From a virus, in IMG/VR virus record IMGVR_UViG_3300009177_000007, positions 1 through 62,661 of that record: a stretch of DNA of 62,661 nt; one strand, given 5' to 3'. Position 1 is the stretch's first letter. Each line of letters starts with the position of its first letter. A program made the translations under genes and the position numbers. The notes beneath the pieces were generated by a model, which was given only the letters and a program-made list of their open reading frames with translations, did no database searches and was not told the origin of the DNA. This document shows positions 29,212 through 47,388 of the stretch, in pieces.

Positions 29212-29308
29212 CAAGCTCCGGGCCGACACCCGGAACATGGTCGGCGTGAGCCGATAGACGGGCGTGGTGTCGGCCGCGCCCGTCGACCCCTTCCGACAGA
29301 GGGACATC

Positions 29309-30613
29309 ATGAAAACAGCATTCATCACCGGAATCACCGGGCAGGACGGCTCATATTTGGCCGAACTGCTTTTGACGAAAGGCTACGAGGTCCACGGCAT
29401 GGTACGCCGGGTGTCGCAGCCCACGTTCGGGAACCTTGCCGCGATCCGCGACCAGATTGTTCTGCACACCGGCGACATGACGGACGGTCCTAGCCTATTC
29501 CGCATCCTGCAGGATCTGGGCCCCGACGAAATCTATAATCTCGCGGCCATGTCACAGGTGCGAGATTCCTATGATCACCCCGAGGTGACGCAGGATATTA
29601 ATGCGGGCGGCCTGCTGCGGATCCTGGAAAGCTGTCGCACGCTCAAGCTCGACGCGAGGATCTATCAGGCCTGCTCAAGCGAGATGTTCGGCCGGGTTCG
29701 CGAAACGCCGCAGACCGAGGCGACGCCTTTCTATCCACGCTCCCCTTACGGCGCCTCGAAGGTTTCCGCCTTCCACATGGCCAAGGTCTGGCGCGAGGCG
29801 TATGGCGCGCGCGTCTCCTGTGGCATCCTGTTCAACCATGAAAGCCCGCGCCGCGGTGAAGCGTTCCTCAGCCGCAAGGTGTGCAAGGCCGTCGCTGAAA
29901 TAGCGACAGGACAGCGCGAGCGGCTGGTGCTCGGCAATCTCTCGGCGAAGCGCGACTGGGGCTATGCTCCCGAATATGTCGAATGGATCTGGCGCATCCT
30001 GCAACATCCGGAACCGGATGATTTCGTGATCGCCACCGGCGAAACCCATTCGGTGGAGGAGTTCGTCGCCGCTGCGTTCGCGCATGCGGGCATCGTCAAC
30101 TGGCAGGATTATGTTGATTACGATCGGGACCTGACGCGCCCGGCCGAGGTCGACCTGCTGAAGGGCGATGCAAGCAAGAGCGCCCGGATCCTGGGCTTCG
30201 AGCCGAAGGTGAAATTCCCCGATCTCGTGAAGATCATGGTCGACGCCGAGATGGCCAAGCTTTCGACGAAGCACAGCGACGAGCGGCGCGATCTCCAATC
30301 CTTTCCGGAAGCAAAGGTCATCACGCTGAAAAAGGACGCCACGATCGGCGGCCATTATCACAAGCTGAAGGACGAGCATTTTATCCTGTCTGAAGGGGCG
30401 GGGTATCTGCGCACCGGCGCTGGGTTGGAACAGTGGCAGGAGCCGATGCAGATCGGCAAGATCTACACGGTGAAGGCTGGCACGCCGCATTGGTTTGACC
30501 TGACCTCCGGTAGCGTGCTTGTCGGGCTCAACAGCAGGCCCTTCGATCCGTCGGATGATTATCGCATTTCTAGCGATGGATATCGCCGCCACGTCGAGCC
30601 GGTCGCGGCCTGA
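29309..30613 (+). CDS. GDP-mannose 4,6-dehydratase fused to a cupin domain
   Basis: In this 434-residue protein, residues 1-320 are an extended SDR: NAD(P) motif GITGQDG (8-14), CSSEMFG (122-128), YGASK (147-151) and NHESPRRGEAF (176-186), hallmark of GDP-mannose 4,6-dehydratase, which makes GDP-4-keto-6-deoxymannose. Residues about 335-434 are a cupin (GGHYHKLKDEHFILSEGAG, GTPHWFDL), which may isomerise the keto-sugar or be structural. A host dehydratase normally lacks this domain. It lies in the head-to-tail interval with its own GAGGG site. Confidence 0.9.
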   Translation: MKTAFITGITGQDGSYLAELLLTKGYEVHGMVRRVSQPTFGNLAAIRDQIVLHTGDMTDGPSLFRILQDLGPDEIYNLAAMSQVRDSYDHPEVTQDINAGGLLRILESCRTLKLDARIYQACSSEMFGRVRETPQTEATPFYPRSPYGASKVSAFHMAKVWREAYGARVSCGILFNHESPRRGEAFLSRKVCKAVAEIATGQRERLVLGNLSAKRDWGYAPEYVEWIWRILQHPEPDDFVIATGETHSVEEFVAAAFAHAGIVNWQDYVDYDRDLTRPAEVDLLKGDASKSARILGFEPKVKFPDLVKIMVDAEMAKLSTKHSDERRDLQSFPEAKVITLKKDATIGGHYHKLKDEHFILSEGAGYLRTGAGLEQWQEPMQIGKIYTVKAGTPHWFDLTSGSVLVGLNSRPFDPSDDYRISSDGYRRHVEPVAA

Positions 30614-31782
30614 TGCGTTGCCTCGATTTGGGCGCCGGCGATATGTCGCCGCCCGGCTTCATCCCGATGGGCAACGCCCACGGCTCGGCTGTGTATCCGC
30701 TCGCTGGCGTTGCCGATGGCAGCATAGATTGCGTTCGCGCGTCGCACGTGCTCGAGCATTTCGCGTCGGGCGAGATCGCCGACGTTCTCGCGGAGTGGGT
30801 GCGAGTACTTAAACCCGGCGGCGAGCTGCGCATCGCAGTGCCGGATTTCGCGAAGATCGCGGAAGGCTATCTCGCAGGCGCGCGCATGCCGACGGAGGCC
30901 TTCGTCATGGGCGGACAGTCCGCGCCTGATGATTTCCATAAGGCTCTGTTCGACGAAGCTCATCTGAAGACGGCGCTCGCCAAGGCCGGCTTGATGCTCA
31001 TCCGCCGATGGGAATCGGAGCTGCAGGACTGTGCGTCGCTGCCGATCTCGCTCAATCTGGCCGGCACGAAGCCGCACCAGGCTGAAATTGGCGTGTCGGC
31101 GGTCATGTCGGTGCCGCGGCTGGGCTTTATGGACAATATGTTTGCGGCGATCGAAGCCCTGCCATCACTTGGCGTGAAGCTTCGCCGCCACACCGGCGCC
31201 TATTGGGGCCAGTGCATGGAACGCGTCATGGAAGAGGCGCTCCGCGAGGATGCGCCCGATGCGATCCTGACGCTCGACTATGATTCGGTCTTCACGCGGC
31301 GTGATGTCTCAATGCTGATGCAGCTCATGTGCTGCCATCCCGAGATCGATGCGATCGCGGCGGTGCAGGCGGGAAGGGGAACGGCAAGCGGGCGCCTGTT
31401 CACCATTAAAGGTGAAGATGGCGCGAGCCTGTCGCAGGTGCCCGGAGAGATCTTCTCCGGCGATGTGACCAAGGTTGCGACGGCGCACTTTGGATTGACC
31501 CTAATCCGGGCCGACAAGCTCGCGGCATTGCCAAAGCCATGGTTTGCCGATGTACCGGCGCCCGACGGTTCATGGAACGATGGCCGCACGGATGCCGATA
31601 TCGCGTTCTGGCGCGGTTGGGAGGCGGCTGGAAACGGCCTCTACATCGCCAATCGCGTCCCGATTGGTCACCTGGAATTGACGGTCCTTTGGCCAGCCCC
31701 GCTCGGGCCGGAAACTACGCCGCTGACGCAGCCCGTAGGCGAATGGCGGGAAAACGGACGGCCCATGGAGGCGTGGCAATGA
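30613..31782 (+). CDS. SAM methyltransferase / glycosyltransferase-like fusion
   Basis: The 389-residue protein starts in a TGATG overlap. Residues 1-130 are a class I methyltransferase: CLDLGAGD (3-10), DGSIDCVRASHVLEHF and VLKPGGELRIAVPDF. Residues about 160-389 carry DAILTLDYDSVFTRRDV with a D-x-D at 222-224 and a later FADVPAPDGSWNDGRTDADI, the look of a GT-A glycosyltransferase. With the adjacent dehydratase this makes a sugar-modifying cassette. Target (virion protein, DNA or host glycan) is unknown. Confidence 0.8.
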   Translation: MRCLDLGAGDMSPPGFIPMGNAHGSAVYPLAGVADGSIDCVRASHVLEHFASGEIADVLAEWVRVLKPGGELRIAVPDFAKIAEGYLAGARMPTEAFVMGGQSAPDDFHKALFDEAHLKTALAKAGLMLIRRWESELQDCASLPISLNLAGTKPHQAEIGVSAVMSVPRLGFMDNMFAAIEALPSLGVKLRRHTGAYWGQCMERVMEEALREDAPDAILTLDYDSVFTRRDVSMLMQLMCCHPEIDAIAAVQAGRGTASGRLFTIKGEDGASLSQVPGEIFSGDVTKVATAHFGLTLIRADKLAALPKPWFADVPAPDGSWNDGRTDADIAFWRGWEAAGNGLYIANRVPIGHLELTVLWPAPLGPETTPLTQPVGEWRENGRPMEAWQ

Positions 31783-31810: not shown

Positions 31811-32701
31811 ATGGGCTTTTCCGCCGTCTCCTCGATTATCTCGCCCGCGGCGAACTATGATCTTACGGATCTCGCCTCCGCCAAGGTGGAGTTGAGCATC
31901 ACGACGACGACGGATGATGCATGGCTCGCAAAAGCGGTCAGCCAGGTTTCCCGGGCGATTTCAACCGAGACGCAGCGCGTGCTGGTCCCGGAAGTCGTGC
32001 AGGATCTGTTCGAACTCGATCGGCAAGCGTTGCGCCGAGGCTCAGCGCGGCTGGCTTTAGAGGTGCAACTTTCGCGCTGGCCCGTCATCGATATCATTTC
32101 GGTGGTCCAGACGCTCTCGACGGGGCTCACACAGACGCTGGTCCAAGGAACCGATTTCCGGGTCGATCCCGAGAATGGGACCTTGACGCGTCTCGAGCCG
32201 GTCAGCGGCGCGGTCCTGTCATGGGAAGCCGACCCGCTGACGGTTATCTACATGGCCGGCTATGGCGCGCTGGCTACTGAAACCCATTCTGTGCCAGCAT
32301 CGCCATATCAGGTCACGGTCAGTCAGAGCGCGGCGTTCTCCTGCGACCAGTCCGTCAAATATTCGAGCGGAACGGCGCTCACGCGCGTCAGTGGTTCCCC
32401 GGCGGCCGGGCAGTACAGCGTTGCGGCCGGCGTCTACACCTTCGCCGGGGCGGACAGCGGGCAATCTCTGACCTTCACATATGGCGTGAAGGTCATTCCC
32501 GATGATCTGGCCGAGATTTGCCTCCGCCTCATCAACGGGCGCTATCGCGGGAAGGATCGCGACCCGTCGCTCGTGCAGCAGGAAACACCTGGCGTCGGCA
32601 TGCGGCGATGGTGGTTTGGCGGCGCGCCAGGGCAGAAGGGACAGTTCGCTCCGGATATTGCCGCGGCGCTTGAGCGTTTTTGTATGCCGGTTGTCGGCTG
32701 A
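31811..32701 (+). CDS. head-tail connector (gp6-like) with inserted beta module
   Basis: In this 296-residue protein, the N-terminal SIISPAANYDLTDLASAKVE and WLAKAVSQVSRAIS and the C-terminal DDLAEICLRLINGRYRGKDR are connector-like helices. Between them (about 161-228) is an inserted domain with SPYQVTV, GSPAAGQYSVAAGVYTF and LTFTYG, also present in the tail tube and DUF2460 proteins. The gp6-type assignment rests on position and the helix pattern. Confidence 0.75.
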   Translation: MGFSAVSSIISPAANYDLTDLASAKVELSITTTTDDAWLAKAVSQVSRAISTETQRVLVPEVVQDLFELDRQALRRGSARLALEVQLSRWPVIDIISVVQTLSTGLTQTLVQGTDFRVDPENGTLTRLEPVSGAVLSWEADPLTVIYMAGYGALATETHSVPASPYQVTVSQSAAFSCDQSVKYSSGTALTRVSGSPAAGQYSVAAGVYTFAGADSGQSLTFTYGVKVIPDDLAEICLRLINGRYRGKDRDPSLVQQETPGVGMRRWWFGGAPGQKGQFAPDIAAALERFCMPVVG

Positions 32702-33204
32702 TGGATAATATCAGGATTAATATCACCGGCGAGCGGCAAGCGGGCCTGAAGTTCGAAGAGTTTCCCGACGATCTCTATGACGATCTGCGGCGGGAAATCG
32801 ATGCGCTGACGCACGAGCTTTTCGGCCTGGTCCAGGCCGCGACGCCGGATCGGACGGGCAGGCTGCGCAGTCAGGAGCGGGTCCGGATCTTCACCGACAA
32901 GAACCGGATCACCGGCTATATCGACGTGGCCGGCGAGAAGGGATCGCAGGACTTCGCGAAGGCTGCCGCTATTGAATATGGCGCCCATCGCAAGACGAAA
33001 GTTTCAGAGCACTCGATGAAGCTCGACCACGCGTGGGGCGAGATGCTCAACGCGCCGATCACAGTCATGGTGGCCGCTTATGAGCGCACGCCGAACATCG
33101 CCGCGCATGCCTTCGAGCGGGGCCCGCTAGCGGTCATGCAGCCGCAGATCATCGCCCGGTTGAATGATGCGGTGAGCCAAGCTGTCGCGAAGGCCAACGA
33201 ATGA
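32701..33204 (+). CDS. HK97 gp10-like tail completion protein
   Basis: In this 167-residue protein, VQAATPDRTGRLRSQERVR and AAAIEYGAHRKTKVSEHSMK match the gp10 family, whose members sit at the head-tail joint and permit tail attachment. The C-terminus (YERTPNIAAHAFERGPLAVM) is helical. Starts in a TGATG overlap with the connector and overlaps the next start by ATGA. Confidence 0.78.
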   Translation: MDNIRINITGERQAGLKFEEFPDDLYDDLRREIDALTHELFGLVQAATPDRTGRLRSQERVRIFTDKNRITGYIDVAGEKGSQDFAKAAAIEYGAHRKTKVSEHSMKLDHAWGEMLNAPITVMVAAYERTPNIAAHAFERGPLAVMQPQIIARLNDAVSQAVAKANE

Positions 33205-33626
33205 ACGTGGACATCGAAGCCGTCATGGAAGCGCTGCTGACGCACATCACCAGTGCGGTTCCGGACTTCATCACCAGCGGCCGGCGCGTGAAGCATTGGA
33301 CGGAGGTGTCCGATCAGCCCGCGTTCTTCCTGCGCCGCACCGGCATGATGGACAGTTTCAATGGCTCCATGCCGATCGTTACGATGGATTGCGAGGCCTG
33401 GATATACTGCAACGCGGGCAAGAGCCCGGATGTCGCGCCGGACGAACAGCTGACCCTCCTCGAGACGAAGCTCCGCGATAGTTTGGCGCCAAATGACCAG
33501 ATGAGATTCACGCTGAACGGTCTCGTTTACTGGTGCCGGATCGAAGGCAAGAGCGACATTTCCCCGGGCGATCAAGGGCCTCAGGCCATAGCTCGCATTC
33601 CCATCCGTATCACCTTGCCATTCTGA
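33201..33626 (+). CDS. tail terminator-like protein
   Basis: The 141-residue protein opens with an N-terminal helix MNVDIEAVMEALLTHITSAV, then alternating strands ending PQAIARIPIRITLPF. Order (connector, gp10, this, tail tube) is that of siphovirus tail terminators, which cap the tube and join it to the head. Direct sequence recognition is weak; assignment is mostly by synteny. Confidence 0.65.
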   Translation: MNVDIEAVMEALLTHITSAVPDFITSGRRVKHWTEVSDQPAFFLRRTGMMDSFNGSMPIVTMDCEAWIYCNAGKSPDVAPDEQLTLLETKLRDSLAPNDQMRFTLNGLVYWCRIEGKSDISPGDQGPQAIARIPIRITLPF

Positions 33627-33636
33627 GGAGAAAATC

Positions 33637-33870
33637 ATGCGCTACACGGCTCCCGCACACGTTTCTGGGATCAATCTTTCGATCGGCCCGGTTGTCGTGG
33701 TCGACGGCTTCGTTGAGGTGCCTGACGATCTTGGGGCGGGCGACCTCGGCGGCCTGGCAATGAACGGCTTCACGCCGGTTCCGGCCGACGAACCCGCGCC
33801 AGTTCCGGCGAAGACACCGAAGGTCGATCCGGCATCAACGGCTGCTTCCGGCCCGAAAGAGGGTCAATGA
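33637..33870 (+). CDS. small hypothetical structural protein (77 aa)
   Basis: MRYTAPAHVSGINLSIGPVV then VVDGFVEVPDDLGAGDLGGL is a short beta motif, followed by a Pro/Ala-rich tail (PADEPAPVPAKTPKVD). Small proteins like this are often found before the tail tube in alphaproteobacterial phages. ATGA overlap with the next gene. Function unknown. Confidence 0.65.
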   Translation: MRYTAPAHVSGINLSIGPVVVVDGFVEVPDDLGAGDLGGLAMNGFTPVPADEPAPVPAKTPKVDPASTAASGPKEGQ

Positions 33871-34127
33871 GCTCCACGACGAACCTCGCCGCGGCTTCCG
33901 GCAGGCAGCTTGCATCGGGGTTTTTCTTCGGGCTCAGCCCGGAGGCCATTGCAGCTTCGCTGCGGGCGCTCGCTGAAGAAATCGAGCGGGAGGCGATACC
34001 GGTGCAAGACCTCCGCCACATTACTCGCGCTGCACCAGACGATTTTGTCATGCACACGCTCATTCTGCGGTTCGCCGCGAGGGCGGAACTTGAAACGCAG
34101 CCGGCGGATGGGGGCGCTGGCACCTAA
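33867..34127 (+). CDS. hypothetical protein before tail tube (86 aa)
   Basis: Coupled by ATGA to the preceding gene. A helical stretch FGLSPEAIAASLRALAEEIE and VQDLRHITRAAPDDFVMHTL dominate. The tail is Ala/Gly/Thr-rich. No domain recognised; soluble. A 67-base gap with a GAAGGAAC site follows before the tail tube gene. Confidence 0.6.
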   Translation: MSSTTNLAAASGRQLASGFFFGLSPEAIAASLRALAEEIEREAIPVQDLRHITRAAPDDFVMHTLILRFAARAELETQPADGGAGT

Positions 34128-34194
34128 AGCTCTCAACATCCCCATTCCCAATGCCCGTCGTGAGACGCGCAGTCCCACAGAAGGAACTTGAAAA

Positions 34195-34959
34195 ATGGCC
34201 TCAAACGATACCTTTTCGTTCGGCGCTGGCGTGCTTTGGGCGACCCAGTTGACCGATTACACCGGCGCAGCGGTTGCGTTGCCGACGCCCCTCATGCTTG
34301 GCACCTTGCAGGATGTCAGCATCGACATCAGCTACGACAGCAAGCCGCTGCATGGGCAGAACGCGTTCGCAGTCGCCAATGCGCGCGGTAAGGGCAAGGT
34401 CTCGGGCAAGGCGAAGTTCGCACGCCTGGATGGTCTGCTGTTCCAGTCGGTTATCAGCGGCATGCCGATCACTTCGGGCATTGCCAGCGTCGTCTACGAC
34501 ACGACCGGCGCAGCCATTCCATCCACGCCTTATACCATCACGCCGACGGTTCCTGGTTCGGGTACTTTCGGCCGTGTGCTCGCGGTGCGCGATGGCATCG
34601 GCAACGAATATACCCAGGTGGCGAGCGGCCCGACCACCGGGCAGTATTCGCTCTCGGCTGGCGTCTTCACCTTTGCTGCCGCCGATACCGGCAAGACGGT
34701 CTATATCGACTATGCGTACACCGCGACGTCGACCTCAGCAAAGAAGGCGCTTGTTACCAACCAGCCCATGGGTTACGCACCGACCTTCCGCGCCGATTTC
34801 CTCAATCCTCGCTCCGGCATGTCGCTGGTTTTGTTCGCCTGCATGGCCAACAAGTTTGCCTATGCTACCAAGATCGACGACTGGGCGATCAACGAGCTTG
34901 ATTTCGAGGCCTTCGCCGATAGCAACCAGCAGGTCTATCAGTTCGGAACGATCGCATAA
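34195..34959 (+). CDS. major tail (tube) protein with inserted beta module
   Basis: The 254-residue protein sits right before the tail chaperones. GKGKVSGKAKFARLDGLLFQ and the C-terminal KIDDWAINELDFEAFADSNQ fit siphovirus tube proteins. Residues about 109-177 are the same inserted module as in the connector: STPYTITPTV, GPTTGQYSLSAGVFTF and VYIDYAY. On a tube this module would repeat along the tail surface. Confidence 0.82.
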   Translation: MASNDTFSFGAGVLWATQLTDYTGAAVALPTPLMLGTLQDVSIDISYDSKPLHGQNAFAVANARGKGKVSGKAKFARLDGLLFQSVISGMPITSGIASVVYDTTGAAIPSTPYTITPTVPGSGTFGRVLAVRDGIGNEYTQVASGPTTGQYSLSAGVFTFAAADTGKTVYIDYAYTATSTSAKKALVTNQPMGYAPTFRADFLNPRSGMSLVLFACMANKFAYATKIDDWAINELDFEAFADSNQQVYQFGTIA

Positions 34960-35300
34960 TGGTAACGCTGACGCTCGCGGGGCGGTCTTTCGAGATCGCC
35001 CCTTATGACATCGATGACATGCTGGTAGCCGCGCCCCATGTTGACGCGTTGAAGGGGCGAAAGAGGCCTGAAACGATCACCGAATCTCTGGAAGAAATTA
35101 AGCAGATTGCCGCAGTCGTGACTGTCGGATTGAAGAAGATTGATCCCGACATCACCATCACGTCGGTCATAAAGATGGCGTTGCCTGACGGGGTGGAAAC
35201 GCTCTCTCTGGCGATGCAGGAGATCCTCAACGAGTTCGGCCTCAAACCTGCGGGGGAAGCGAAGGCTCCTGCCAAGCGGCGCAAGGCAGCGGGAGCTTAG
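34959..35300 (+). CDS. tail assembly chaperone, short form
   Basis: The 113-residue protein starts at the last base of the tail tube stop. MVTLTLAGRSFEIAPYDIDD and VVTVGLKKIDPDITITSVIK are typical of the G-type tail chaperone. The zero frame ends at TAG 35298-35300, but the -1 frame is open through the stop and encodes conserved sequence, so a longer frameshift form is likely. Low-complexity Ala/Lys tail just before the stop. Confidence 0.82.
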   Translation: MVTLTLAGRSFEIAPYDIDDMLVAAPHVDALKGRKRPETITESLEEIKQIAAVVTVGLKKIDPDITITSVIKMALPDGVETLSLAMQEILNEFGLKPAGEAKAPAKRRKAAGA

Positions 35301-35644
35301 AACAGCAACTTATCGACATCGTTTGCGGCCTAGTCGCCGCAGGCGTCGAGGGAGGATGCTGGGATCGCGTCACGAAATGGAACCTGAAACGGGCCCGGGC
35401 AATGTACTCTTACTGGGCGCGCAACGGGCCGCCGCCATATCTCGCGCTGCAGTCCATCGGCCGCGCGGTTGGCGTTGATTGGAAGCTGGAGACTGAAGAG
35501 CCGGAAATTTTGTCAACACGTTCCATGACTGATCCTGCTCAGCCCGTTCCTACCATAGCAGAGGTTGCCGCCGCCGCTCCAAAGCCCGGCGCTGATCTCA
35601 CGGAAACCAGCGCCGCGATCCTGCGGCAGATGGGAATCAGCTAG
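35252..35644 (+). CDS. tail assembly chaperone frameshift extension (GT-type)
   Basis: The -1 frame is open from before 35222 to the TAG at 35642-35644. It reads GSLEQQLIDIVCGLVAAGVE then CWDRVTKWNLKRARAMYSYW and ARNGPPPYLALQSIGRAVG, which is clearly coding though it has no good start before 35402. A candidate slippery heptamer G-GGG-GAA is at 35252-35258, giving about 100 + 128 residues. This follows the G/GT plan of lambda-like tails. Confidence 0.75.
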   Translation, partial: GGSEGSCQAAQGSGSLEQQLIDIVCGLVAAGVEGGCWDRVTKWNLKRARAMYSYWARNGPPPYLALQSIGRAVGVDWKLETEEPEILSTRSMTDPAQPVPTIAEVAAAAPKPGADLTETSAAILRQMGIS

Positions 35645-35967
35645 CCATATTTGGCGTAGAACGTCGCATCATTGGACGTGAACAGCAGGATCGCGTCGAT
35701 CAGCGACAGCAGAAACGGAATTAAGGTCCAGCAAAAGACCAGATAAAGGACGCCCGCGCCGGTGCGGCCGAGATAAAACTTATGCATGCCGATTGCACCG
35801 AAGAACAGCGCAAGCACTGCCGCCACGGTCCGGTTGCGTGACGTGCTGGCCACCGCTCCAGGTTGAGGCGCTCCACAATCAGGACATTGCTGCGCTGACT
35901 GATGCAACGCCTTTCCGCATCCGGGACAATACTTCGTGAGCGCCGGGTCGATATTCGCGGTCGCCAT
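35641..35967 (-). CDS. TM2-domain membrane protein with zinc ribbon (moron)
   Basis: The 108-residue protein has an N-terminal zinc ribbon CPGCGK...CPDCGA (residues 14-31), then two membrane segments in a TM2 domain: VAAVLALFFGAIGMHKFYLG and GVLYLVFCWTLIPFLL. TM2 proteins are host-type membrane proteins. It is on the opposite strand between tail chaperone and tape measure, with its own promoter (35995-36022) and GAGGA site, so it can be expressed in lysogens. Confidence 0.85.
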   Translation of the reverse strand: MATANIDPALTKYCPGCGKALHQSAQQCPDCGAPQPGAVASTSRNRTVAAVLALFFGAIGMHKFYLGRTGAGVLYLVFCWTLIPFLLSLIDAILLFTSNDATFYAKYG

Positions 35968-35994
35968 TCTCAGATCCTCGCTTTGGCAACTCCG

Positions 35995-36022
35995 CCATTA
36001 CCGAGGCGCCGCTCATTCGCAA
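35995..36022 (-). promoter_or_regulatory. putative promoter of the TM2 moron
   Basis: On the minus strand TTGCGA (36022-36017) and TAATGG (36000-35995) are 16 bases apart, upstream of the ATG at 35967. The elements are moderate matches. An independent promoter is expected for a gene opposing the late operon. Confidence 0.45.
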
Positions 36023-36072
36023 CTATGATGATCGGACTTTCGTGAGCGACTGTCCCGAATTTGGAGGTGATG

Positions 36073-38982
36073 ATGGCCAATAATATTGCGGTCTCTATCA
36101 CCGCCGATGTGGTCGATCTTCAGGCGAAGCGGGCAATCATGTCCGCGGAACTGAAGGCCGCGACCAAGGACCTAAACGCGTTTGCGAAAGAGGCGGCCAG
36201 CACCGGCGGGACCGATCAGCTCCGCGCCGGCATGCTCGCGAGCGCCGAAGCCGCCGAGAAGGCGCGCGCCAAAATCGCGCTCGTCACCCAAGAGATCAAG
36301 GAACTAAATCACGTCCCCGAACCGCCGAGGCATGGTTTTGAAGCGCTTACCGCCACTGTTAGTCAGACGGGAATTCACCTCAAAGAAACCGTTGGCCAGT
36401 TCGGTGAATTTCGCGCCGCACTTGCTGAGGTCGCGGAAGTCCTCATAGTCGCCTTCGCGGTCGAAAGGATCGCCGAGTGGGCCGAGCACATGGGCGAGGC
36501 CGCCGAGAAGACTAAGCACATGGCCGAGACCTTCGGGATGACGGTCCCTGAGGTTCAAGGTCTGTCAGCAGTCGCCAAAGAAACTGGCATGGACGTGGAT
36601 GCACTCGCCAAAGGCATGGGCATCCTCGATAAAAACACCGTCACTGCAGGCGAAGGCAATGGTAAGATCGCGGCGGCGCTGAAAGCGGTTGGCATCGCGG
36701 CCAATGACGGGCGGTCGCAGATGGAGCGGATGCTCGTCATCGCCGACCGGTTCAAGGACATGGACGACGGGCCAAAGAAGGTCGCGCTCGCCATGGAACT
36801 CTTCGGCAAATCCGGCAAGGAACTGATCCCGGTCCTAAATATGGGCGCGGAAGGCCTGCAAGAGATGGACCGCGTCACCCAGGAATATGGTGCCGGTGCC
36901 CTGTTTGCGAGCGCCGCCAATAAGGAGCTGCGCGACTGGCTCGACCAGGTGAATGCGCGAGGCATGGCGCTCGCTGATGCCACCGACACGACCAAGGTTG
37001 CGATGCAAGGCCTCGGAAACGTCATGACCGATGCCTTCGCGCCGATCCTGACCTCGCTCACCGATGGCCTGAATTCCATGATCAAGGCCTTCATCGACAG
37101 CTACCGCGAAGGGGGCATTGTCGCCGTGGTCATGGGCACCATCACCACTGCGCTTGAGGCAGTGTGGGAAGTCGTGAAGGCGCTCGGCCAAATCTTCTAC
37201 GAAGTGTTCAGCGCGATCGTGGAATTGGTCGGCGACGTCGTGGCGGACATCATGGATGCCTTCGGGATCAAGACGCCGCAGGCCATGCATGCTGCCGAAA
37301 TCGCCTGGAATGTCTTCAAGGATGCCGTCGTCATCGCGAAGGATATCATCCTCGTCGCGATCGACGCGATCATTGGCATCGTCGAGCAGCTGGTCGGAAA
37401 TCTTGTCACGTTCGGCAAGGTCGCGTGGGACGCCTTTTCCCTGAACTGGGGCGCGATCGAGGGCGATTGGGCGTCCGGTATGGCGCGCGTCGAAAAGCAA
37501 ATCGAAGCATCGTCTGCCCGGATCAAAGGCCACGTTGCCGAGATGAATGCAGCGCTCACCGCAGCTGCGCACGGAGAGGCGCTTCCGGGCAAGCCCGCGG
37601 AAACGCACGAGCCGAAAGGCGTGAAGGATTTCGACCCCGATCTAGCCGGCGCGGGCAAGAAAGGACCGAAAACCACCATCGCCCAGAAGCTCGAAGAGGA
37701 GCTGGAAGCGAAGAAGACCGCTTGGGCGATGGAGCAGGACGCTCAGGGCACCTATCAGCAATATTCGCTGCAGTCCGAGGCTGATTTCTGGCAACAGGCA
37801 CTCAAGCGGACCGATCTCAGTGCCAAGGACAAGCTGGAGATCGAGCGGAAGTATCTCGCCGCGCGGCAGGCGCTGATCAAGGAAAAGCAGCAGCAGGAGA
37901 CCGATGACGCCAAGCAGAGCGAGGCTCTCGCGATCGAGGCGGCCAAGACGCAAAATGACCTCGCCCGGCTCGGCATCCAGGCCAAGCTTAATGCGATAGA
38001 GGAAGCGCGGCGGCTCGGTACGATTTCGGCCAACGAGGCGGTCCAGCAGCATCGGGACCTGAACGCGCAGCTATATCAGCTCGACGTCGATCTCGAGAAC
38101 AAGGAACATGCGATCAAGCTCAAGGGCTTGCAGGACCAACGCGCGATCCTCGGTCAGAACTCTGAATATTATCGCAAGATTGACCAGCAGATCGAGCTGC
38201 TCGAAAAGCAGCACCAAGATAAGATCACCGTGCTCAACGCGCAGGGTAATCAGAAGCGGCTTCAGGATGATCGAAAGGTTTACGAGCAGACGCATAAGTT
38301 GCAGCTCGATGCCATCCACAGCCTTAGCCAGTCCTGGAGCAGCACGCTCGGCAAAATGCTGACACTGCAGACCTCGTTCGCGAACGGCATCAAGTCGATG
38401 TGGCAGGGGCTCGTTGGCGTGATCGGCGATGCTCTCGGCCACATGATCGAGAAGTGGCTCGAAAAGCAGCTCACCGCTCTTATTCTCGGGCGGGCGCAGC
38501 AAGCCGTGACGGGCGTTGCACAGGTGACTTCGAACGCCGCTGTGGCGGCCTCCGGCGCCTACGCGGCCACGGCGATGATCCCGATCATTGGCCCAGCGCT
38601 GGCTCCCGCTGCCGCGGCGACTGCGCTCGCCGGCGCCATGTCGTTCGCGCCGCTCGCATCGGCCGAGGGCGGTGACTGGCAGGTGCGCGGCGGCCTCTAT
38701 AATTTGCACCCGGATGAAATGGTGCTGCCTGCACATCTCGCCCGGCCGATGCGGGCCATGATCGAAGGCGGCGCGAACGACAATACGTCCTCAACCTCTT
38801 TCGGGCGGAGTGCTGCAGCATCAGGTTCGCGCGGCGGCGATGTCCACAACCATAACTACAATATCAAGGCCCTGGACGGTCACAGCGTCAAACGCGTCCT
38901 GATGAACAATCTGGGCCATTTCGCCACAGCATCGAAGGAAGCACGCCGCCAAGGCCACTTCGCGGGGATGCGGCGAGCGTGA
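36073..38982 (+). CDS. tail tape measure protein
   Basis: The 969-residue protein starts at ATG 36073, 5 bases after GGAGG. The N-terminus is coiled coil (IMSAELKAATKDLNAFAKEA). It has a hydrophobic centre (VVMGTITTALEAVWEVVKAL), a long Gln/Glu coiled coil (KEKQQQETDDAKQSEALAIE) and Gly/Ala membrane-like segments near 800-860. The C-terminus has LYNLHPDEMVLPAHLARPMR, common in these proteins. It sets tail length and aids DNA entry. At about 1.5 angstrom per residue it predicts a tail near 145 nm. Confidence 0.92.
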   Translation: MANNIAVSITADVVDLQAKRAIMSAELKAATKDLNAFAKEAASTGGTDQLRAGMLASAEAAEKARAKIALVTQEIKELNHVPEPPRHGFEALTATVSQTGIHLKETVGQFGEFRAALAEVAEVLIVAFAVERIAEWAEHMGEAAEKTKHMAETFGMTVPEVQGLSAVAKETGMDVDALAKGMGILDKNTVTAGEGNGKIAAALKAVGIAANDGRSQMERMLVIADRFKDMDDGPKKVALAMELFGKSGKELIPVLNMGAEGLQEMDRVTQEYGAGALFASAANKELRDWLDQVNARGMALADATDTTKVAMQGLGNVMTDAFAPILTSLTDGLNSMIKAFIDSYREGGIVAVVMGTITTALEAVWEVVKALGQIFYEVFSAIVELVGDVVADIMDAFGIKTPQAMHAAEIAWNVFKDAVVIAKDIILVAIDAIIGIVEQLVGNLVTFGKVAWDAFSLNWGAIEGDWASGMARVEKQIEASSARIKGHVAEMNAALTAAAHGEALPGKPAETHEPKGVKDFDPDLAGAGKKGPKTTIAQKLEEELEAKKTAWAMEQDAQGTYQQYSLQSEADFWQQALKRTDLSAKDKLEIERKYLAARQALIKEKQQQETDDAKQSEALAIEAAKTQNDLARLGIQAKLNAIEEARRLGTISANEAVQQHRDLNAQLYQLDVDLENKEHAIKLKGLQDQRAILGQNSEYYRKIDQQIELLEKQHQDKITVLNAQGNQKRLQDDRKVYEQTHKLQLDAIHSLSQSWSSTLGKMLTLQTSFANGIKSMWQGLVGVIGDALGHMIEKWLEKQLTALILGRAQQAVTGVAQVTSNAAVAASGAYAATAMIPIIGPALAPAAAATALAGAMSFAPLASAEGGDWQVRGGLYNLHPDEMVLPAHLARPMRAMIEGGANDNTSSTSFGRSAAASGSRGGDVHNHNYNIKALDGHSVKRVLMNNLGHFATASKEARRQGHFAGMRRA

Positions 38983-40025
38983 CTATCCGCAAATACACCA
39001 GTTTCGATTTAGGCATATCCCAGACGCTGCTTGCCGCCGATGGCTTCTATGGTGACATATTCGTGGATATGTCGCAGGGGACCGGACGGTTCGGCCGTGG
39101 CTACGCCTGGGGCATTAACGATTCGATCTTCAATCGCGATCGATATTGGAGTCTCGACGACTTCATCGGACCCACGATCTTCTTCACCGCCGGCGTCATG
39201 CTGCCGACAGCCTACCAGGGCAACTGCACCATCTACTTCTGGGATAGCCACAATGGCGCCGCCGCATCGGTGCGCTTCGGATCGCTGGGCGAAATCTATG
39301 TCTACAATTCGGCTGGAACGCTGATCGCACAGACGCCCATCGGCGTGTGGGCGTCCGATCGGTGGTTTCAGTTCGAAATGAAGGTCTACATGCACAATAC
39401 GGCCGGAACGATCGAGGTCCGGTACAACACCAAGGTGGTGATTTCCGCCGACGCGGTCGATACGCTACCAGGCACCAGCACAGGCATCGACGCGATCCGC
39501 TTCTATCGCCCGCAATCGACCGAGAACAATATCTCCATCTGGTTCAACGAACTGATCGCCCATGACGACCAGGGTTCGGTGAACAACGACTATCTCGGCA
39601 ACGTGAATGTCAACAGCCAGCTCGTCATCGGCAACGGCTATGCCAACCAATTCTCGATCGGCGGCAGCGCGCCAGCGGGGACCAACTGGCAATCCGTCCT
39701 CAACACGGCGCTCGACGATACCAAATATGTCTATTCACCCAATGTCGGCGATATCGATTTCTATACGCCCAATCCGACGCTCAACAGCCCGGTGGTCTAT
39801 GCGACGCAGGTGAAGGCCGCCATGCGCCAGGACGATTCGACCCAGCGCATCGGCCGCGTCGGGCTCCGCGTCGGATCGACCACCTATATGGGCTCGAAGG
39901 ACTTCTATCTGGATCAGACCTATCGCCTCTACAGCGATATGTGGGAGCTTAATCCTTCCACCGGTGTGGGCTGGACGGGCAGCGAGGTCAACGGCATCCA
40001 GATCGGCGTCAAGGTCAATGCCTGA
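38979..40025 (+). CDS. tail structural protein, beta-rich (348 aa)
   Basis: The GTG start overlaps the tape measure stop (GTGA). The chain is beta-rich with many Asn, Tyr and Thr: GNCTIYFWDSHNGAAASVRF, WFQFEMKVYMHNTAGTIEVR, and VGLRVGSTTYMGSKDFYLDQ. It resembles concanavalin-like lectin folds by pattern, not by a proven motif. The position after the tape measure suggests a distal tail or carbohydrate-binding component. Confidence 0.7.
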   Translation: MTIRKYTSFDLGISQTLLAADGFYGDIFVDMSQGTGRFGRGYAWGINDSIFNRDRYWSLDDFIGPTIFFTAGVMLPTAYQGNCTIYFWDSHNGAAASVRFGSLGEIYVYNSAGTLIAQTPIGVWASDRWFQFEMKVYMHNTAGTIEVRYNTKVVISADAVDTLPGTSTGIDAIRFYRPQSTENNISIWFNELIAHDDQGSVNNDYLGNVNVNSQLVIGNGYANQFSIGGSAPAGTNWQSVLNTALDDTKYVYSPNVGDIDFYTPNPTLNSPVVYATQVKAAMRQDDSTQRIGRVGLRVGSTTYMGSKDFYLDQTYRLYSDMWELNPSTGVGWTGSEVNGIQIGVKVNA

Positions 40026-41182
40026 TGCCCACCAACATCAGGGTCAACGTCAGCTTCGCTGAAACGATCGGCCGAGGGTCCCCGAACATCCGGGTCAGCG
40101 CCGAGGCGATCGAAGCACTCTCCGGCGGGTATCCGAATGTCCGGGCCGACCTCGTCTACAACGAAGCTTTGTCGGGGGGACGGCCTAATGTCCGGGTCGA
40201 TCTGGCATTCACCGAAGCGCTGGCCAACGGCTACCCTAACGTCCGCATCCAGGCCGTCCTGATCGAGACGATTGTCCAGAATCCATTGGAGTATCCTGTG
40301 GTCACAGCCATTCTGCCCGGCTTCGGCAACTCGGTGGCCACCCCGAGCATCCCCGAGGCCGCAAATCCCGCAACCGGCGCAACGCCCGGCCTAGCCTTCT
40401 CCGTTCACATGAAGCCCAAGTTCAACACGCGGATTTCCACCTCGGTCAATTTCAAATCGATCCGCTCGCCGCTCGCGCCTTATCCGAGCTGGGAATTCGA
40501 ACTGCCCTATGAATTTCTGTCCGACCGCGACCAGGCCAATTCCAGCTTACGGACGCTGATGGGTTTCTATTGCGCGCGACTGGGCGCTGCTGAGCCGTTT
40601 CTGGTCAAGGTTCCAGAATTTTTTCTCGCGAGCGACGCCACGATTGGCACGGCCGACGATGTCCGCCTGCAATGGGATTTCTTGCGCTGGATAGGCTCGG
40701 AATATTTTGAACCGGTCGGGCAGGTGGATATCGCCAACACCGTCAAGGTCTACCTGACGCTTAACGAGACCGTCAGCGTGCCGGGATCGGGCCCCTATAC
40801 CGTCACCGTGGCGCATGCCGCCGCCTTCGTGGAGGACAAAGGTGTCACCATCGGCGGGACTCCGCTGACGAAGGTCACATCCTCGCCGGCGGCCATGCAA
40901 TATTCGGTCGCGGCGGGCGTCTACACGTTCAACTCGGCGCAGCATGGCGCTTCGGCCGTTATCGACTATCGCTATCTAGTCGACCCGAGCGCCTACTCTG
41001 TCACGCTTCCGAACAAGATCGTCTTTGGAACCGCGCCCACGCCGGCAGGCGCCCGGATCAGCTGGGACGGGCAATATTTCTTCACCTGCTATTTCGATGA
41101 GGATATGGCGGACTTCGAGAAGTTCGCGGACAAGCTCTGGACGCTCCAGCAGTTGACCTTTCACAGTGAATTGCTTGCATGA
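40025..41182 (+). CDS. DUF2460-like distal tail protein with repeats and inserted module
   Basis: The 385-residue protein opens with five 17-residue repeats (4-88) before the DUF2460 core: FNTRISTSVNFKSIRSPLAP, WEFELPYEFLSDRDQ and LTFHSELLA at the end. Residues 247-319 are the shared beta module (GSGPYTVTV, SPAAMQYSVAAGVYTF). DUF2460 is part of the alphaproteobacterial gene transfer agent-type tail tip, followed as here by DUF2163 and NlpC/P60. It shares its first base with the previous stop. Confidence 0.85.
   Translation: MPTNIRVNVSFAETIGRGSPNIRVSAEAIEALSGGYPNVRADLVYNEALSGGRPNVRVDLAFTEALANGYPNVRIQAVLIETIVQNPLEYPVVTAILPGFGNSVATPSIPEAANPATGATPGLAFSVHMKPKFNTRISTSVNFKSIRSPLAPYPSWEFELPYEFLSDRDQANSSLRTLMGFYCARLGAAEPFLVKVPEFFLASDATIGTADDVRLQWDFLRWIGSEYFEPVGQVDIANTVKVYLTLNETVSVPGSGPYTVTVAHAAAFVEDKGVTIGGTPLTKVTSSPAAMQYSVAAGVYTFNSAQHGASAVIDYRYLVDPSAYSVTLPNKIVFGTAPTPAGARISWDGQYFFTCYFDEDMADFEKFADKLWTLQQLTFHSELLA
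40034..40288 (+). repeat. five tandem 17-residue repeats in distal tail protein
   Basis: Units begin NIRVNVSF, NIRVSAEA, NVRADLVY, NVRVDLAF and NVRIQAVL; the first four end G-x-P and the fifth breaks down after IVQNP. The consensus is N-V-R-V-x-[LA]-x-x-x-E-[AT]-[LI]-x-G-G-Y-P. The period is exact at 51 bases across the first four units. Confidence 0.9.
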
Positions 41183-42090
41183 GGCCGATCACCGCTCAGC
41201 CGGGGCACGTCGAAGCCGATGTGGTGGACGCGCTGGCGTCAAAGAACTTCGTCTATACCGATTGCTTCACGATCACGCCGCTGATCGGCAGCCCGCTCTA
41301 TTACACGAACGCCGCCCGCGACGTGACCGTCGTGCCGCTGGGCGGCCTGATCCGGCAGACCTATCTTGGCGGTTCCGTGCTCGTGCAGGGGCTCCGGTCG
41401 CACATCAAGATCGGGATCGAGGTCGACGAGCAGCAGCTGGTGCTCGATTATACCAACGAGCTTGATTTCCAGGCACGGCTTCCCTGGCCGAAAGCATTGC
41501 TGCTCGGATATCTGGATGGGGCATCGATCCGGCGCGACCGCTTCATCGCCGGTGCGTGGGGCGATGATCTCTCCTATCCCTGGCTTGGCGGCATGCCGAT
41601 GTTCGACGGCATAGTCGCGGGGCTCACGCAGGTCGGGCGGCAGTCGGCGACCCTCAGCGTCAAATCCGCCATCAATGTGCTCGACACCGAGATGCCGCGC
41701 GATCTGTACCGGCCGCGCTGCAAGAATGTGTGGGGCGATCTCAGTTGCGGCGTCGACCAAAGCGCGTTCGCATCGATCGTCACCATCAGCTCTGGATCGC
41801 CCACCACGACCTTCCTGCCGTGGACTGGAGCCAATGCGAATTATGTCGAGGGGAAAGTCCACATCGACAATGGCGATTCGGTCACTCGGGTGCGCAAGAT
41901 CCAGCGCGCCGACACGGCAGGCCTGTGGTTGGTATACCCGCTCGATTTTACGCCGACGATCGGAACGACCTTCACGGCATTTCCCGGCTGCCCCGGCACT
42001 ATGACGCGGTGCCAGGACTTTCATGGGTCTTCGTGGCTCACGCGGTTCAAGGGCTTTCCCTATATCCCTGTGGTTGAATCGAGCTTCTAG
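41179..42090 (+). CDS. DUF2163 (phage BR0599-type) tail protein
   Basis: The 303-residue protein shows TDCFTITPLIGSPLYYTNAA and the C-terminal Cys signature LYRPRCKNVWGDLSCGVD, then GCPGTMTRCQDF and FKGFPYIPVVESSF, which define the family. In gene transfer agents the equivalent protein forms the tail tip hub with bound metal or cluster. It is coupled by ATGA to the DUF2460 gene and abuts the NlpC gene. Confidence 0.92.
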   Translation: MRPITAQPGHVEADVVDALASKNFVYTDCFTITPLIGSPLYYTNAARDVTVVPLGGLIRQTYLGGSVLVQGLRSHIKIGIEVDEQQLVLDYTNELDFQARLPWPKALLLGYLDGASIRRDRFIAGAWGDDLSYPWLGGMPMFDGIVAGLTQVGRQSATLSVKSAINVLDTEMPRDLYRPRCKNVWGDLSCGVDQSAFASIVTISSGSPTTTFLPWTGANANYVEGKVHIDNGDSVTRVRKIQRADTAGLWLVYPLDFTPTIGTTFTAFPGCPGTMTRCQDFHGSSWLTRFKGFPYIPVVESSF

Positions 42091-42576: not shown

Positions 42577-42911
42577 GCTTTTGCCCCAGCTGCGGCTTCA
42601 ATCTGGATCGCGACAAAGTTCTCCAGCTCGATGGTTTCACACTGGATCCACGTGGCGAGGTTCATTTCGGCGAAACGCGTGTTGAGCTGAGCCATCATGA
42701 GGCGCTCGTAATGCACACCGTGGCAGCAGCCGCAGGCCGCCCAGTAAAGACCGAGACTATCGCCTGTCGCGTCTCGGACGGAGAAGATCCGCACTGCGCT
42801 TCGGTGTTCATCCATCGTGCGCGCCGCCGTCTGCTCGCCGCCGGCATCCCTAATCCTATCCAGACGGCTTTTCGTCGCGGATATCGTTGGAGCGTGAAGT
42901 GGGTTTCCTAG
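42573..42911 (+). CDS. zinc ribbon plus OmpR/PhoB-type winged-helix protein
   Basis: The 112-residue protein begins MSFCPSCGFNLDRDK (one CxxC) and continues FTLDPRGEVHFGETRVELSH, a typical OmpR-type beta platform. The recognition helix region ASVFIHRARRRLLAAGIPNP and the wing AFRRGYRWS follow. No receiver domain is present. A DNA-binding protein inside the tail tip module is unusual; it may regulate late genes or ride in the virion. Confidence 0.85.
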   Translation: MSFCPSCGFNLDRDKVLQLDGFTLDPRGEVHFGETRVELSHHEALVMHTVAAAAGRPVKTETIACRVSDGEDPHCASVFIHRARRRLLAAGIPNPIQTAFRRGYRWSVKWVS

Positions 42912-45547
42912 GTCTTGGCGGCCACAAGACCAAGCCTGAATATACCGGCCTCGCCACTCAGACTTCGACCTCAAACATCGCGATCGCCATTGTCATGGGC
43001 GAGAACCGCGGTTCGCCCAACATCATCTGGCAGGGCGATTTCCAGGCGCACAAACATAGCGCAGGTGGCAAGGGCGGCGGAGGGAAGGGGGGATCGACCT
43101 ACACCTATTCGGGCAGCTTTTGGCTGGCCTTGTGCTGGGGTCCGATCCACGGAATCGGTACGGTCTACAAAGACAAGGAGCTTACCACCCTTGCCGCACT
43201 AGGTTTCACGCTCTTTACGGGCACGACGCCTCAATCGCCCTGGGGTTATCTCACCACGGCGCACCCAAGCGAGGCGCTTGGCTATGCCGGGATCGCTGGT
43301 TGCACGAAGGCGAACTACGACCTCGGCAGCTCCAATGCCCTTTCGCAGCACAGCTTCGAGATCCAGGGGCTGCTCTGGAATACCGCAACATGGACTGGTG
43401 GCAACGACGCCGATATCGGGCTCGGCATTCAGGCATACATTTCCGACCCTACATGGGGCGTCGGGTTCGACACGTCCTTCCTGAACACGGATAGCCTGCT
43501 TTCGACGCCAGCAGCCGCGACGACGGGCGACAATGCTCTCCAGACTTATTGCCAGGCGATGGGATGGGGCTTCTCGCCCAACCTCGTCGATCAAACCGCC
43601 GCATCCGACACGATCAAGCGCTGGTGCGATCTGTTCAACGCCGCGCCGATCTGGACGGGCTACAATCTCAAATTCCTGCCATACTGCACGGAAAGCATCA
43701 CGGCCAACGGGGTGACATATCTGCCCAGCTTCCCGGTTGCCTACGTCATCACCGACGACGATTTCCTCGGTGACGCAAGCGCGGATCCGATCAGTTTCGA
43801 TCGGGCGGATCCTGCCGATTGCAAGAACCAGTTTCAGATCACGATCTCGAACAAGGCGAACCAGTATAACGACCTCCCCGTCATGTGGGAGGATCTGGCG
43901 CTGATCGACCAATATGGCGTCAAGCCCGACAGCGGCTTCGAGGCCAAGGAGATTACCTCAGAAACGATGGCGCAGCAGATGGTTGCGCTCTATGGCCAGC
44001 GCAACACCTATGTCCGCAATCGCTTCGCGCTGAACCTCGGCGTCAATTTCATGCGGCTGGAGCCTGGCGACATCATCCAGGCGGTCGACCCGGTGCTCGG
44101 CACGCTGACGCTCATGGTTGAGGAGATCACTGAGCAGGACGACGATAGCTTGGACCTCGTGGCATTTGAATGGAACGACAGCGTCACGCTGGCACCGACC
44201 ATCCCGACACAGCCGGTCTCCGGCAACAACGTCGACACAGGCGTCGCGGCAAGCGCCGTGAACACGCCGATCCTGTTCGAGCCGCCTTCGACCCTGGCCG
44301 GCACGCCGCAGGTTTGGGCGGCGGTCTCGGGCGGAAACGGCACCACGGCCGATCCGCTCTGGGGCGGCTGCAATGTATGGATCTCGACGGACAATGCGAC
44401 CTACACGCAGATCGGCACGATCAACGAGCCGGCGCGGATGGGCGTCACGACTGCTACGCTCGCGGCCTATGGGGGCAGCAATCCCGATGCCGGTCATACG
44501 CTCTCGGTCAACCTCGCCGAAAGTGCCGGAGCGCTCATCAGCGCGAGTTCAGCGGCCGACGCCGCGGCCGGCGCGAACCTCTGCTATGTTGGCGGCGAAT
44601 TCGTCTCGCCGCAGACCGTCACGCCGACCGCGACCTATGCGTTCAATTGCACGAACCTCTATCGTGCGCTCTACGGTTCAACGGCTGGCTCGCACGCCTC
44701 GGGATCGCCGATCGCCCGGCTGGACGGGAACGTCTTCAAATATGACCTGCCAGCGGCTTACATTGGCATCACGCTCTATCTGAAGTTTCAGAGCTTCAAC
44801 GTCTATGGCGGTGGCGTGCAGGATCTTTCGACCTGCACGGCATACACGATCACCACGACCGGCGCGGGCTTCGGGACCGGCACCGCCGGCGCGCCGGCGA
44901 CGCCAACAGGGCTCAGCGCGACCGCAGGTTATGCGCAGGTGGCGCTCAGCTGGACGGCGAATGTCGCCAACGACAATGTGACATCCTACGAGGTCTGGCG
45001 GGCGAATGGCACCGGCGCGTCGTTCGGGTCCGCCAGCAAGATCGCGACCGTTGCAGGGCTTGCCTATACCGATACAGGCCTCGCGGCTTCGACCGGCTAC
45101 ACCTATTTCCTGAAGGCGGTGAATATCGTGGGCCCATCAAGCCCGACGGGCGGCGTGAACGCGACGACCAGCGCGACCGGCTTTGGAGGACCATCCGCAA
45201 CCATCACCACGTCGGAAGCGCTCTCGGCCGGAAACGTCTGCAACATTTATACGAGTGGCGGCGCGGCGCGGGTCCAGAAGGCGAATGCAACCGATCTCAC
45301 CAAGCCGGCCAATGCCTTCGTGCTGGCATCGGTGGGCTCCGGTGCATCGGCCACGACGTATTTCGCGGGCTCGGTCATCACTGGGCTCACCAGCCTGACG
45401 CCAGGTACGACCTATTGGCTGGATACGACCGGTGGCGCGGTCACGGCGACACCGCCATCCGGTTCCGGCAACGGCGTGCAGGAGATAGGCGTCGCTCTGT
45501 CTGCCACCACGCTTCTCTTCGATCCTCAACCGATGATTGGGCTATGA
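42899..45547 (+). CDS. tail tip / host-specificity protein with fibronectin III domain
   Basis: The GTG start at 42899 lies inside the end of the previous gene. The 882-residue protein starts VGFLGLGGHKTKPEYTGLAT. The N-terminal half is a hub-like fold (SGSFWLALCWGPIHGIGTVY, QNRFALNLGVN-type region near 370). A fibronectin III domain lies near 665-760: PATPTGLSATAGYAQVALSW and YTDTGLAASTGYTYFLKAVN. It is last in the GTA-like module and probably carries receptor binding or anchors fibres. Confidence 0.85.
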   Translation: MGFLGLGGHKTKPEYTGLATQTSTSNIAIAIVMGENRGSPNIIWQGDFQAHKHSAGGKGGGGKGGSTYTYSGSFWLALCWGPIHGIGTVYKDKELTTLAALGFTLFTGTTPQSPWGYLTTAHPSEALGYAGIAGCTKANYDLGSSNALSQHSFEIQGLLWNTATWTGGNDADIGLGIQAYISDPTWGVGFDTSFLNTDSLLSTPAAATTGDNALQTYCQAMGWGFSPNLVDQTAASDTIKRWCDLFNAAPIWTGYNLKFLPYCTESITANGVTYLPSFPVAYVITDDDFLGDASADPISFDRADPADCKNQFQITISNKANQYNDLPVMWEDLALIDQYGVKPDSGFEAKEITSETMAQQMVALYGQRNTYVRNRFALNLGVNFMRLEPGDIIQAVDPVLGTLTLMVEEITEQDDDSLDLVAFEWNDSVTLAPTIPTQPVSGNNVDTGVAASAVNTPILFEPPSTLAGTPQVWAAVSGGNGTTADPLWGGCNVWISTDNATYTQIGTINEPARMGVTTATLAAYGGSNPDAGHTLSVNLAESAGALISASSAADAAAGANLCYVGGEFVSPQTVTPTATYAFNCTNLYRALYGSTAGSHASGSPIARLDGNVFKYDLPAAYIGITLYLKFQSFNVYGGGVQDLSTCTAYTITTTGAGFGTGTAGAPATPTGLSATAGYAQVALSWTANVANDNVTSYEVWRANGTGASFGSASKIATVAGLAYTDTGLAASTGYTYFLKAVNIVGPSSPTGGVNATTSATGFGGPSATITTSEALSAGNVCNIYTSGGAARVQKANATDLTKPANAFVLASVGSGASATTYFAGSVITGLTSLTPGTTYWLDTTGGAVTATPPSGSGNGVQEIGVALSATTLLFDPQPMIGL

Positions 45548-46560: not shown

Positions 46561-47388
46561 CTAGCGATAGGACGAAGACTGGAACGGATGAAGCAGCTGA
46601 AGGACGAAGCTCCTGCCGGTCTCGCCATCAACGCCCGTCCGGCCTGGTTTATGGTCTGGAAGATAGTACGTGCCGAAAATCCAGTCATAGGCTGAGAATA
46701 TCGTGGCGAAATTCTGCGCTCGGACGCTGCTATCGGTGACATGATGCCAGCGGTGAAACACAGGTGAGACAAAGATCCGTTTGAATATGCCATAGGTCCA
46801 GGGAAGATCGGCATGTATCCAGATACCATACCAGTGGCGAACGATATTGTTGATGACGATGGCGTAGGCGGGAAAGCCCAGCGCATAGAGAGTTAGGCCG
46901 TCGATTAGCGACGTGCTTAGCCTGTTGAGGGGATGGAATCGATAGCCCGTCGTCCAGCTCATGCGGCCATCCGAATGATGCAGTGCGTGGCTAGGCCACA
47001 GCCAGCGGCAGTGCTCAATGCGATGCCTCCAATAGCTGACCAGATCACCCGCACAGATGGCAGCCACGATGATTAACGGAGGCAGGTCGTACCGGAGCAA
47101 CCCGAGCTGATGGCGTGGCAGAATGGCATCTATCGGCGTTCTCGCGAGCGAAATCGCGATAAGCATGATTGGTGCAATTGCCAGGCTGTCGATCACGGCC
47201 AGAATAATATTGAAAGTGATTTCGCGGCGCGCCTCGCGTAAATGCTGAATAGCTGCCCGTTTTCGGACGATCACCGCGAGCAGGCTGAACATCAGCGCGA
47301 GCAGGCAAAGCTCCGCGATGAATTTTGGCAGGTTTGTCATCAATCGATCTGCGCTCCTCAGAATAACCCCAGCGTAGCAGAAAGTCAT
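46561..47388 (-). CDS. sterol desaturase / fatty acid hydroxylase family membrane enzyme (moron)
   Basis: The 275-residue protein has four to five membrane segments and the family's His boxes: HRIEH (HxxxH), HALHH (HxxHH), and HRWHH (HxxHH) later, which bind two irons. The segment WTTGYRFHPLNRLSTSL is also typical. These enzymes hydroxylate lipids or carotenoids. It opposes the late genes, so it could act in lysogens, altering membrane lipids. The alternative start at 47340 (MTNLPKFIAELCLLAL) is possible. Confidence 0.88.
   Translation of the reverse strand: MTFCYAGVILRSADRLMTNLPKFIAELCLLALMFSLLAVIVRKRAAIQHLREARREITFNIILAVIDSLAIAPIMLIAISLARTPIDAILPRHQLGLLRYDLPPLIIVAAICAGDLVSYWRHRIEHCRWLWPSHALHHSDGRMSWTTGYRFHPLNRLSTSLIDGLTLYALGFPAYAIVINNIVRHWYGIWIHADLPWTYGIFKRIFVSPVFHRWHHVTDSSVRAQNFATIFSAYDWIFGTYYLPDHKPGRTGVDGETGRSFVLQLLHPFQSSSYR

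Follow-up and report, generated by a model that had tools for sequence, protein, structure and literature searches.

IMG/VR virus record IMGVR_UViG_3300009177_000007 was analysed over its full length of 62,661 nt (the window), with emphasis on the region 31,811-41,182, where the head-tail connector, the major tail tube protein and the distal tail protein (Dit) each contain a small inserted segment. The three segments are almost certainly copies of one homologous plug-in domain, referred to here as the module, of which the module proper is about 66-68 residues long. Taken as a whole, the reading favoured here, with moderate confidence, is that of a mobile immunoglobulin (Ig)-like plug-in domain used as an exterior decoration in weak contact with the host envelope. 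The three host proteins and their modules are listed below with expectation values (E).

31811..32701, + strand: head-tail connector (adaptor, gp6/RcGTA g6-like), 296 aa; PHROG 442 head-tail adaptor, E 4e-15
32291..32494, + strand: module copy 1, connector residues 161-228; module profile E 4e-27
34195..34959, + strand: major tail tube protein, 254 aa; PHROG 8234, E 1.3e-70
34516..34725, + strand: module copy 2, tail tube residues 108-177; module profile E 2e-23
40025..41182, + strand: Dit (DUF2460, RcGTA g12-like), 385 aa; PF09343, E 1.9e-19; PHROG 2913, E 3e-21
40763..40981, + strand: module copy 3, Dit residues 247-319; module profile E 2e-26

Homology, predicted fold and insertion sites

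The initial annotation of this region, made from the sequence, had placed one beta module in these three proteins; the coordinates of all proteins and segments were verified, with the tail tube copy set at 108-177. In a tblastn search of the virus record, the connector module matched the Dit copy at E 1.2e-15 with 57% identity and the tail tube copy at E 2.8e-11 with 40% identity. Pairwise identity among the copies was 40-57%, and the host cores had no detectable similarity. A profile of tail tube modules from other phages scored 81-90 bits on all three window copies, compared with a maximum of 11.8-15.7 bits for shuffled window modules run against the same profile (3,000 shuffles each, 9,000 in total). 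Profile-profile comparison had been named beforehand as a place where the claim could fail; there, the modules of the tube, connector, Dit, hub and megatron proteins matched one another at 99.4-99.9% (E 1e-21 to 1e-33), and the host cores with the module excised matched each other at 5% or less. Together with the shuffles, these scores put the likeness of the modules far beyond chance. The shared motif first described was found to be right overall, except that in the connector the [SG]-x-[PG]-Y start is off by one residue (A-S-P-Y) and the Y-x-Y-like last strand reads Y-G-V instead. A candidate fourth copy at 62009-62104 (tblastn E 0.011) was rejected as chance, as the module profile had no match there.

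The module family is absent from Pfam and NCBIfam. None of the curated Ig-like Pfam models (Big_1, Big_2, I-set and FN3) matched, and just DUF11 was seen below threshold (13-15 bits, cut-off 24.6); the carbohydrate-binding module (CBM) models did not match the three modules at E up to 1. Searches of the PDB sequences with the module profile and the host proteins returned no phage relative. Matches of the module profile to filamin in the PDB (E 0.1) were below threshold and were not used.

AlphaFold2 models of the tail tube and the connector were built with alignments of proteins from the related loci described in the next section. The predicted local distance difference test (pLDDT) score was 91.5 for the tail tube and 86.0 for the connector, with values of about 94-98 and 96-97, respectively, in the module regions. 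The modules of both models have the same order of elements, namely a short strand, helical turn, long strand, short strand, hairpin, helical turn and long last strand. A common fold is therefore predicted directly for two of the three copies, and for the Dit copy it is taken from the identity to the connector copy given above (57%).

The PHROG 8234 match of the tail tube is full-length (residues 7-250 on profile positions 4-251), and the tube model resembled known tail tube proteins with Z scores of 12.5-14.6, including 8xkn_B of SPR (Z 14.6), 8rk3_f of JBD30 (Z 12.7) and 6xgr. The alignment with 8xkn_B spans 222 residues, which exceeds the non-module part of the tube, so the module is included in this match. 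The peripheral helix of the tube lies at residues 80-87, the module at 108-177, and the core resumes at about 197; in the JBD30 tail tube, the helix is at 77-83, the Ig-like decoration domain at 88-175, and the core continues from 184 (PMC11445458). In the model, the tail tube module is thus placed at the known decoration-domain site of JBD30, YSD1 and SPR.

The predicted connector fold is that of the adaptor of the Rhodobacter capsulatus gene transfer agent (RcGTA; 6tba_2A, Z 11.4 over 177 residues covering the attachment domain and the tube helices), and its module is flanked by the beta attachment-type domain and the tube helices. Taken alone, the connector module best matched the external beta-sandwich of the phage 812 stopper (8qkh_A 142-209; Z 8.4, 1.8 Å over 66 residues), and it also matched SPR tail tube residues 87-155 (22% identity) and other phage baseplate and neck insertions. 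The module is all-beta, and its resemblance to the beta-sandwich insertions of the phage 812 stopper and the SPR tube is a match at the level of the overall fold. The external domain of the phage 812 stopper is likewise an addition, absent from relatives of that stopper (PMC12886913). It has no sequence similarity to the module, and with a Z near 8 the two may have no more than a general arrangement in common. On the models, the best Z is a sign of a common kind of fold and no proof of descent.

Homologues that lack the module mark the insertion site. A connector without it (L136) has an exact gap at the module site, and the gaps are clean in alignments of connector, hub and megatron proteins and messier in Dit. 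The terminator pair could not be cleanly aligned because the module-less open reading frame (ORF) was read with an upstream extension. The hub module of related phages is found between PF09931 and PF09356. The Dit of the window scored 70.4 bits against PF09343 (curated cut-off 30.4).

Two features of the host proteins themselves were also observed. The connector's own beta domain (residues 93-148; 32087-32254) adjoins the module and has a weak, sub-threshold match (E 0.0012) to the YSD1-type tail tube model NF052337, in the part that corresponds to YSD1 domain 2; the native attachment domain of the connector may thus be distantly related to another tube decoration domain. In the N-terminal 85 residues of Dit (40025-40280, + strand), a 20-residue unit of the type PNVRVDLxxxEALxGGYPNVR is repeated imperfectly about four times.

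Distribution and history of the module

Viral contigs, phage genomes and bacterial genomes were scanned, about 300 related loci were collected, and a module profile was used to place the domain in their proteins. The module alone, when searched against phages as had been proposed, was found as one domain family in at least nine protein contexts: connector, terminator (L109), tail tube, Dit, hub, megatron tip (one or two copies), a podovirus-type 700-residue protein (L104 and L110), a jumbo-phage structural protein (Rhizobium phage RHEph12, L008) and an unassigned ORF. The last of these (L274:1460-2137) encodes 226 residues with a C-terminal CxxC...C, has no other family match and lies about 3.7 kb upstream of a connector gene. 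The assigned hosts are all virion proteins, mostly of the tail axis. The cultured Brevundimonas phages Polewnik and Strzyga have the module in connector, tube and Dit. A single consensus query of genome contigs returned 10 loci, each in a different genome; most of these genomes are from Hyphomicrobiales and Rhodospirillales, and the others include Geothrix and a Neisseria metagenome-assembled genome. At one locus (L277:4915-6450), two neighbouring tail-tube-type genes have one module each.

For loci fetched by the module, the numbers of proteins with and without it were 161 and 0 for the tail tube, 72 and 78 for the connector, 17 and 112 for Dit, 13 and 81 for the megatron, 7 and 97 for the hub, and 1 and 151 for the terminator. 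An unbiased sample of 80 loci was fetched by the N-terminal core of the tube alone. The module was present in all 78 tail tubes that were complete enough, the other two being cut off at the module by the contig end. Connectors in this sample were divided (39 with the module, 37 without), and the module was found in 0 of 65 Dit, 3 of 50 hub, 3 of 55 megatron and 0 of 79 terminator proteins. Given its presence in 78/78 tubes and its patchiness in the other hosts, the module is a constant part of this tube lineage but an optional one of the other proteins. Three proteins of the window belong to families that have the module in other phages and lack it here:

33201..33626, + strand: tail terminator candidate (PHROG 8150), empty site; the L109 homologue has the module
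41179..42090, + strand: baseplate hub (PF09931/PF09356), no module; homologues in L073, L083, L263 and L269 have one between the Pfam domains
42887..45547, + strand: megatron-type tip protein (PHROG 1101, PF13550), no module; homologues in L039, L068, L171 and L297-L299 have one or two

Transplantation of the module, as claimed in the initial annotation, is supported by module profiles that match where host cores do not, by clean empty sites, by six or more further contexts and by the same predicted secondary structure in two hosts. The statement that the host folds are unrelated was correct for the adaptor and had to be given up for the others: the RcGTA stopper, terminator, tail tube and Dit share one ancestral fold that arose by gene multiplication (PMC7296036). 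That common origin would allow the tube and Dit copies to be ancestral, with just the connector copy transplanted. Such descent with the host fold is nevertheless very unlikely, as the modules are 43-57% identical while the host cores have no detectable similarity, nearly all Dit relatives lack the module (none of the 65 in the unbiased sample has it) and the Dit copies that exist are in scattered lineages.

The connector tree requires nine or more gains or losses of the module, three of which are forced by well-supported branches. The module tree (68 columns) is too short to separate one connector origin from several, and a tree with the connector copies together was not rejected in the approximately unbiased test (p-AU 0.68). 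The similarity of connector and tube modules was 0.444 within genomes versus 0.439 across genomes (permutation p 0.15), and at the DNA level the window copies resembled each other in the GQYSVAAGVYTF hairpin alone. On these two grounds, gene conversion or recent copying within the genome was rejected; they point to transfers into other hosts that were repeated but old, not to recent duplications.

Function of the module

In the proposed mechanism, an Ig-like beta domain of about 66 residues, tethered at both ends, would plug into outward loops of ring-forming tail proteins. In the tail tube it would be a fixed part, inserted at the decoration-domain site after the peripheral helix and before the next core strand, and recombination would have repeatedly moved copies into other tail-axis proteins, chiefly the connector and more rarely Dit, hub, megatron and terminator. 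Exposed on the outside, the domain would act as a generic, low-specificity decoration. This exterior placement, suggested earlier as a surface decoration, is likely, by analogy alone, from the tube insertion at a known decoration-domain site. The main role proposed for it, tentatively, is weak avidity-type contact with envelope material or glycans of the host along the whole tail; this was placed slightly ahead of the main alternative, bracing of the tube rings. Contact is favoured by the optional spread of the module over neck, tube and tip and by two precedents: phages of the 936 group have carbohydrate-binding modules in the neck passage structure, the major tail protein and Dit (PMC6669499), and the Dit, hub, megatron and fibres of RcGTA hold sugar-binding sites (PMC7296036).

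Several observations weigh against a contact role. Neither a carbohydrate-binding nor an Ig-like Pfam model matches the module, and the consensus positions common to its copies are mostly Gly, Pro, hydrophobic and aromatic residues of the fold core, with no obvious binding site. A structural role would account for the presence of the module in all tail tubes no less well than adhesion, and in the tail tube of YSD1 a domain at this insertion site serves to brace the adjacent subunit (PMC8718954).

A bracing clamp, in which the module packs on the neighbouring subunit and stiffens the ring in the tube and likewise in the connector, Dit, hub and tip, is accordingly a serious competitor, if still a tentative one. 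The contact of the YSD1 domain with the next subunit is large (PMC8718954), the adaptor's Ig-like domain of R4C was assigned to local stability by its authors (PMC10276861), and the module, besides its fixation in tail tubes, does not outpace the tube core in its evolution, as a diversifying receptor binder would. Entropy in the unbiased sample was 1.49 for the module versus 1.28 and 1.57 for the tube core; an apparently higher conservation of the module than of the tube core proved to be an ascertainment effect of fetching by the module and was gone in loci fetched by the tube core. On the other hand, connector, Dit, hub and terminator work without the module in most relatives. Tube and connector modules have 24 columns with a common consensus residue and 1 column that differs; the module is thus conserved as one unit independently of the protein that carries it, and no host-specific conserved interface is visible. 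As the neighbouring surfaces differ from ring to ring, one conserved surface for all of them would be unlikely unless the modules touch each other. The module could also be a functionally near-neutral mobile insert, a small, stable, loop-compatible domain spread by illegitimate or homologous recombination with no common function; its patchy presence in connectors, the sporadic single cases elsewhere and the structural look of the conserved positions would fit. This is improbable, however, since the module is kept in every sampled tail tube and held as tightly as the tube core, and its assigned hosts are tail-axis and other virion proteins, not random genes.

Two further proposals concern a common ligand. 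In the first, one family would be displayed on several consecutive rings from neck to tip, its copies staying interchangeable because all would bind the same partner, either a common envelope ligand or each other; such a shared virion-wide tag is considered rather unlikely. A more specific version, following a suggestion of the initial annotation, has every copy bind a single glycan that the adjoining sugar cassette makes or modifies:

29264-31782, + strand: sugar cassette between the head and connector genes, consisting of a GDP-mannose dehydratase fused to a cupin, followed by a protein with an N-terminal methyltransferase domain

The cassette adjoins the connector, and 11/11 cassette loci have a connector module, but these 11 look like one lineage, and 61 of the 72 module-bearing connector loci have no detectable cassette (some loci being incomplete). 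Polewnik and Strzyga have three modules each, and Polewnik has no sugar gene annotated between capsid and connector. Moreover, if the cassette altered the surface of the host, every phage of this host would be affected. The cassette as the source of the ligand is thus scarcely credible, and weak contact with envelope material remains the slightly preferred role.

Other genes of the window were noted. Two HK97-type major head protein genes (24910-25965 and 27236-28552, + strand; both PHROG 10, the first PF05065 with E 7e-34) lie on either side of the head protease. A zinc-ribbon and TM2-domain protein (PF05154; 35641-35967, - strand) is encoded on the opposite strand between tail genes, and a fatty acid hydroxylase (PF04116, E 2e-24; 46561-47388, - strand) on the opposite strand within the late gene region; the latter is a possible auxiliary metabolic gene.

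Relation to known decoration domains

Tube decoration domains are known from JBD30 (Ig-like; PMC11445458), YSD1 (domain 2; PMC8718954) and SPR (domain D2; PMC10981675). The insertion point after the peripheral helix is common to those tubes and the tube of the window; unlike those domains, to which no sequence relation was detected, the module is one family also found in neck, Dit, hub and tip, whereas those papers treat the tail tube alone. Promiscuous Ig-like domains of phages (Big_1/Big_2, I-set and FN3) are scattered over virion protein classes (Fraser et al. 2006, via PMC9022992), and a given protein class usually contains a single Ig family, the tail tube being the exception (PMC9022992). 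The module differs in that it has no match among those Pfam families and in that a single family extends over connector, terminator, tube, Dit, hub and tip. In the 936 phages, neck, tube and distal tail are likewise all decorated within one phage group, but their domains are BppA-like CBMs of larger size, some of which have been shown to bind cells, while the module is smaller, has no CBM match and is located in the adaptor ring itself. PHROG 8234 is a whole-protein family of unknown function in which the module is not recognised as a separate unit. Within the libraries and papers searched, the new element is therefore one unnamed family extending from neck to tip; promiscuous Ig-like domains and tube decoration domains were known already.

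The module provides a sequence handle for a decoration domain that Pfam and NCBIfam miss. It also explains why one PHROG profile cross-matches several tail proteins, the PHROG 8234 profile matching the module on its own in connector and Dit, which can cause mis-annotation. The natural module-less homologues and the cultured phages with three copies make the role of tail decoration domains directly testable. If the copies did prove to be a shared tag, the tail would be one avidity surface built by domain-level recombination.

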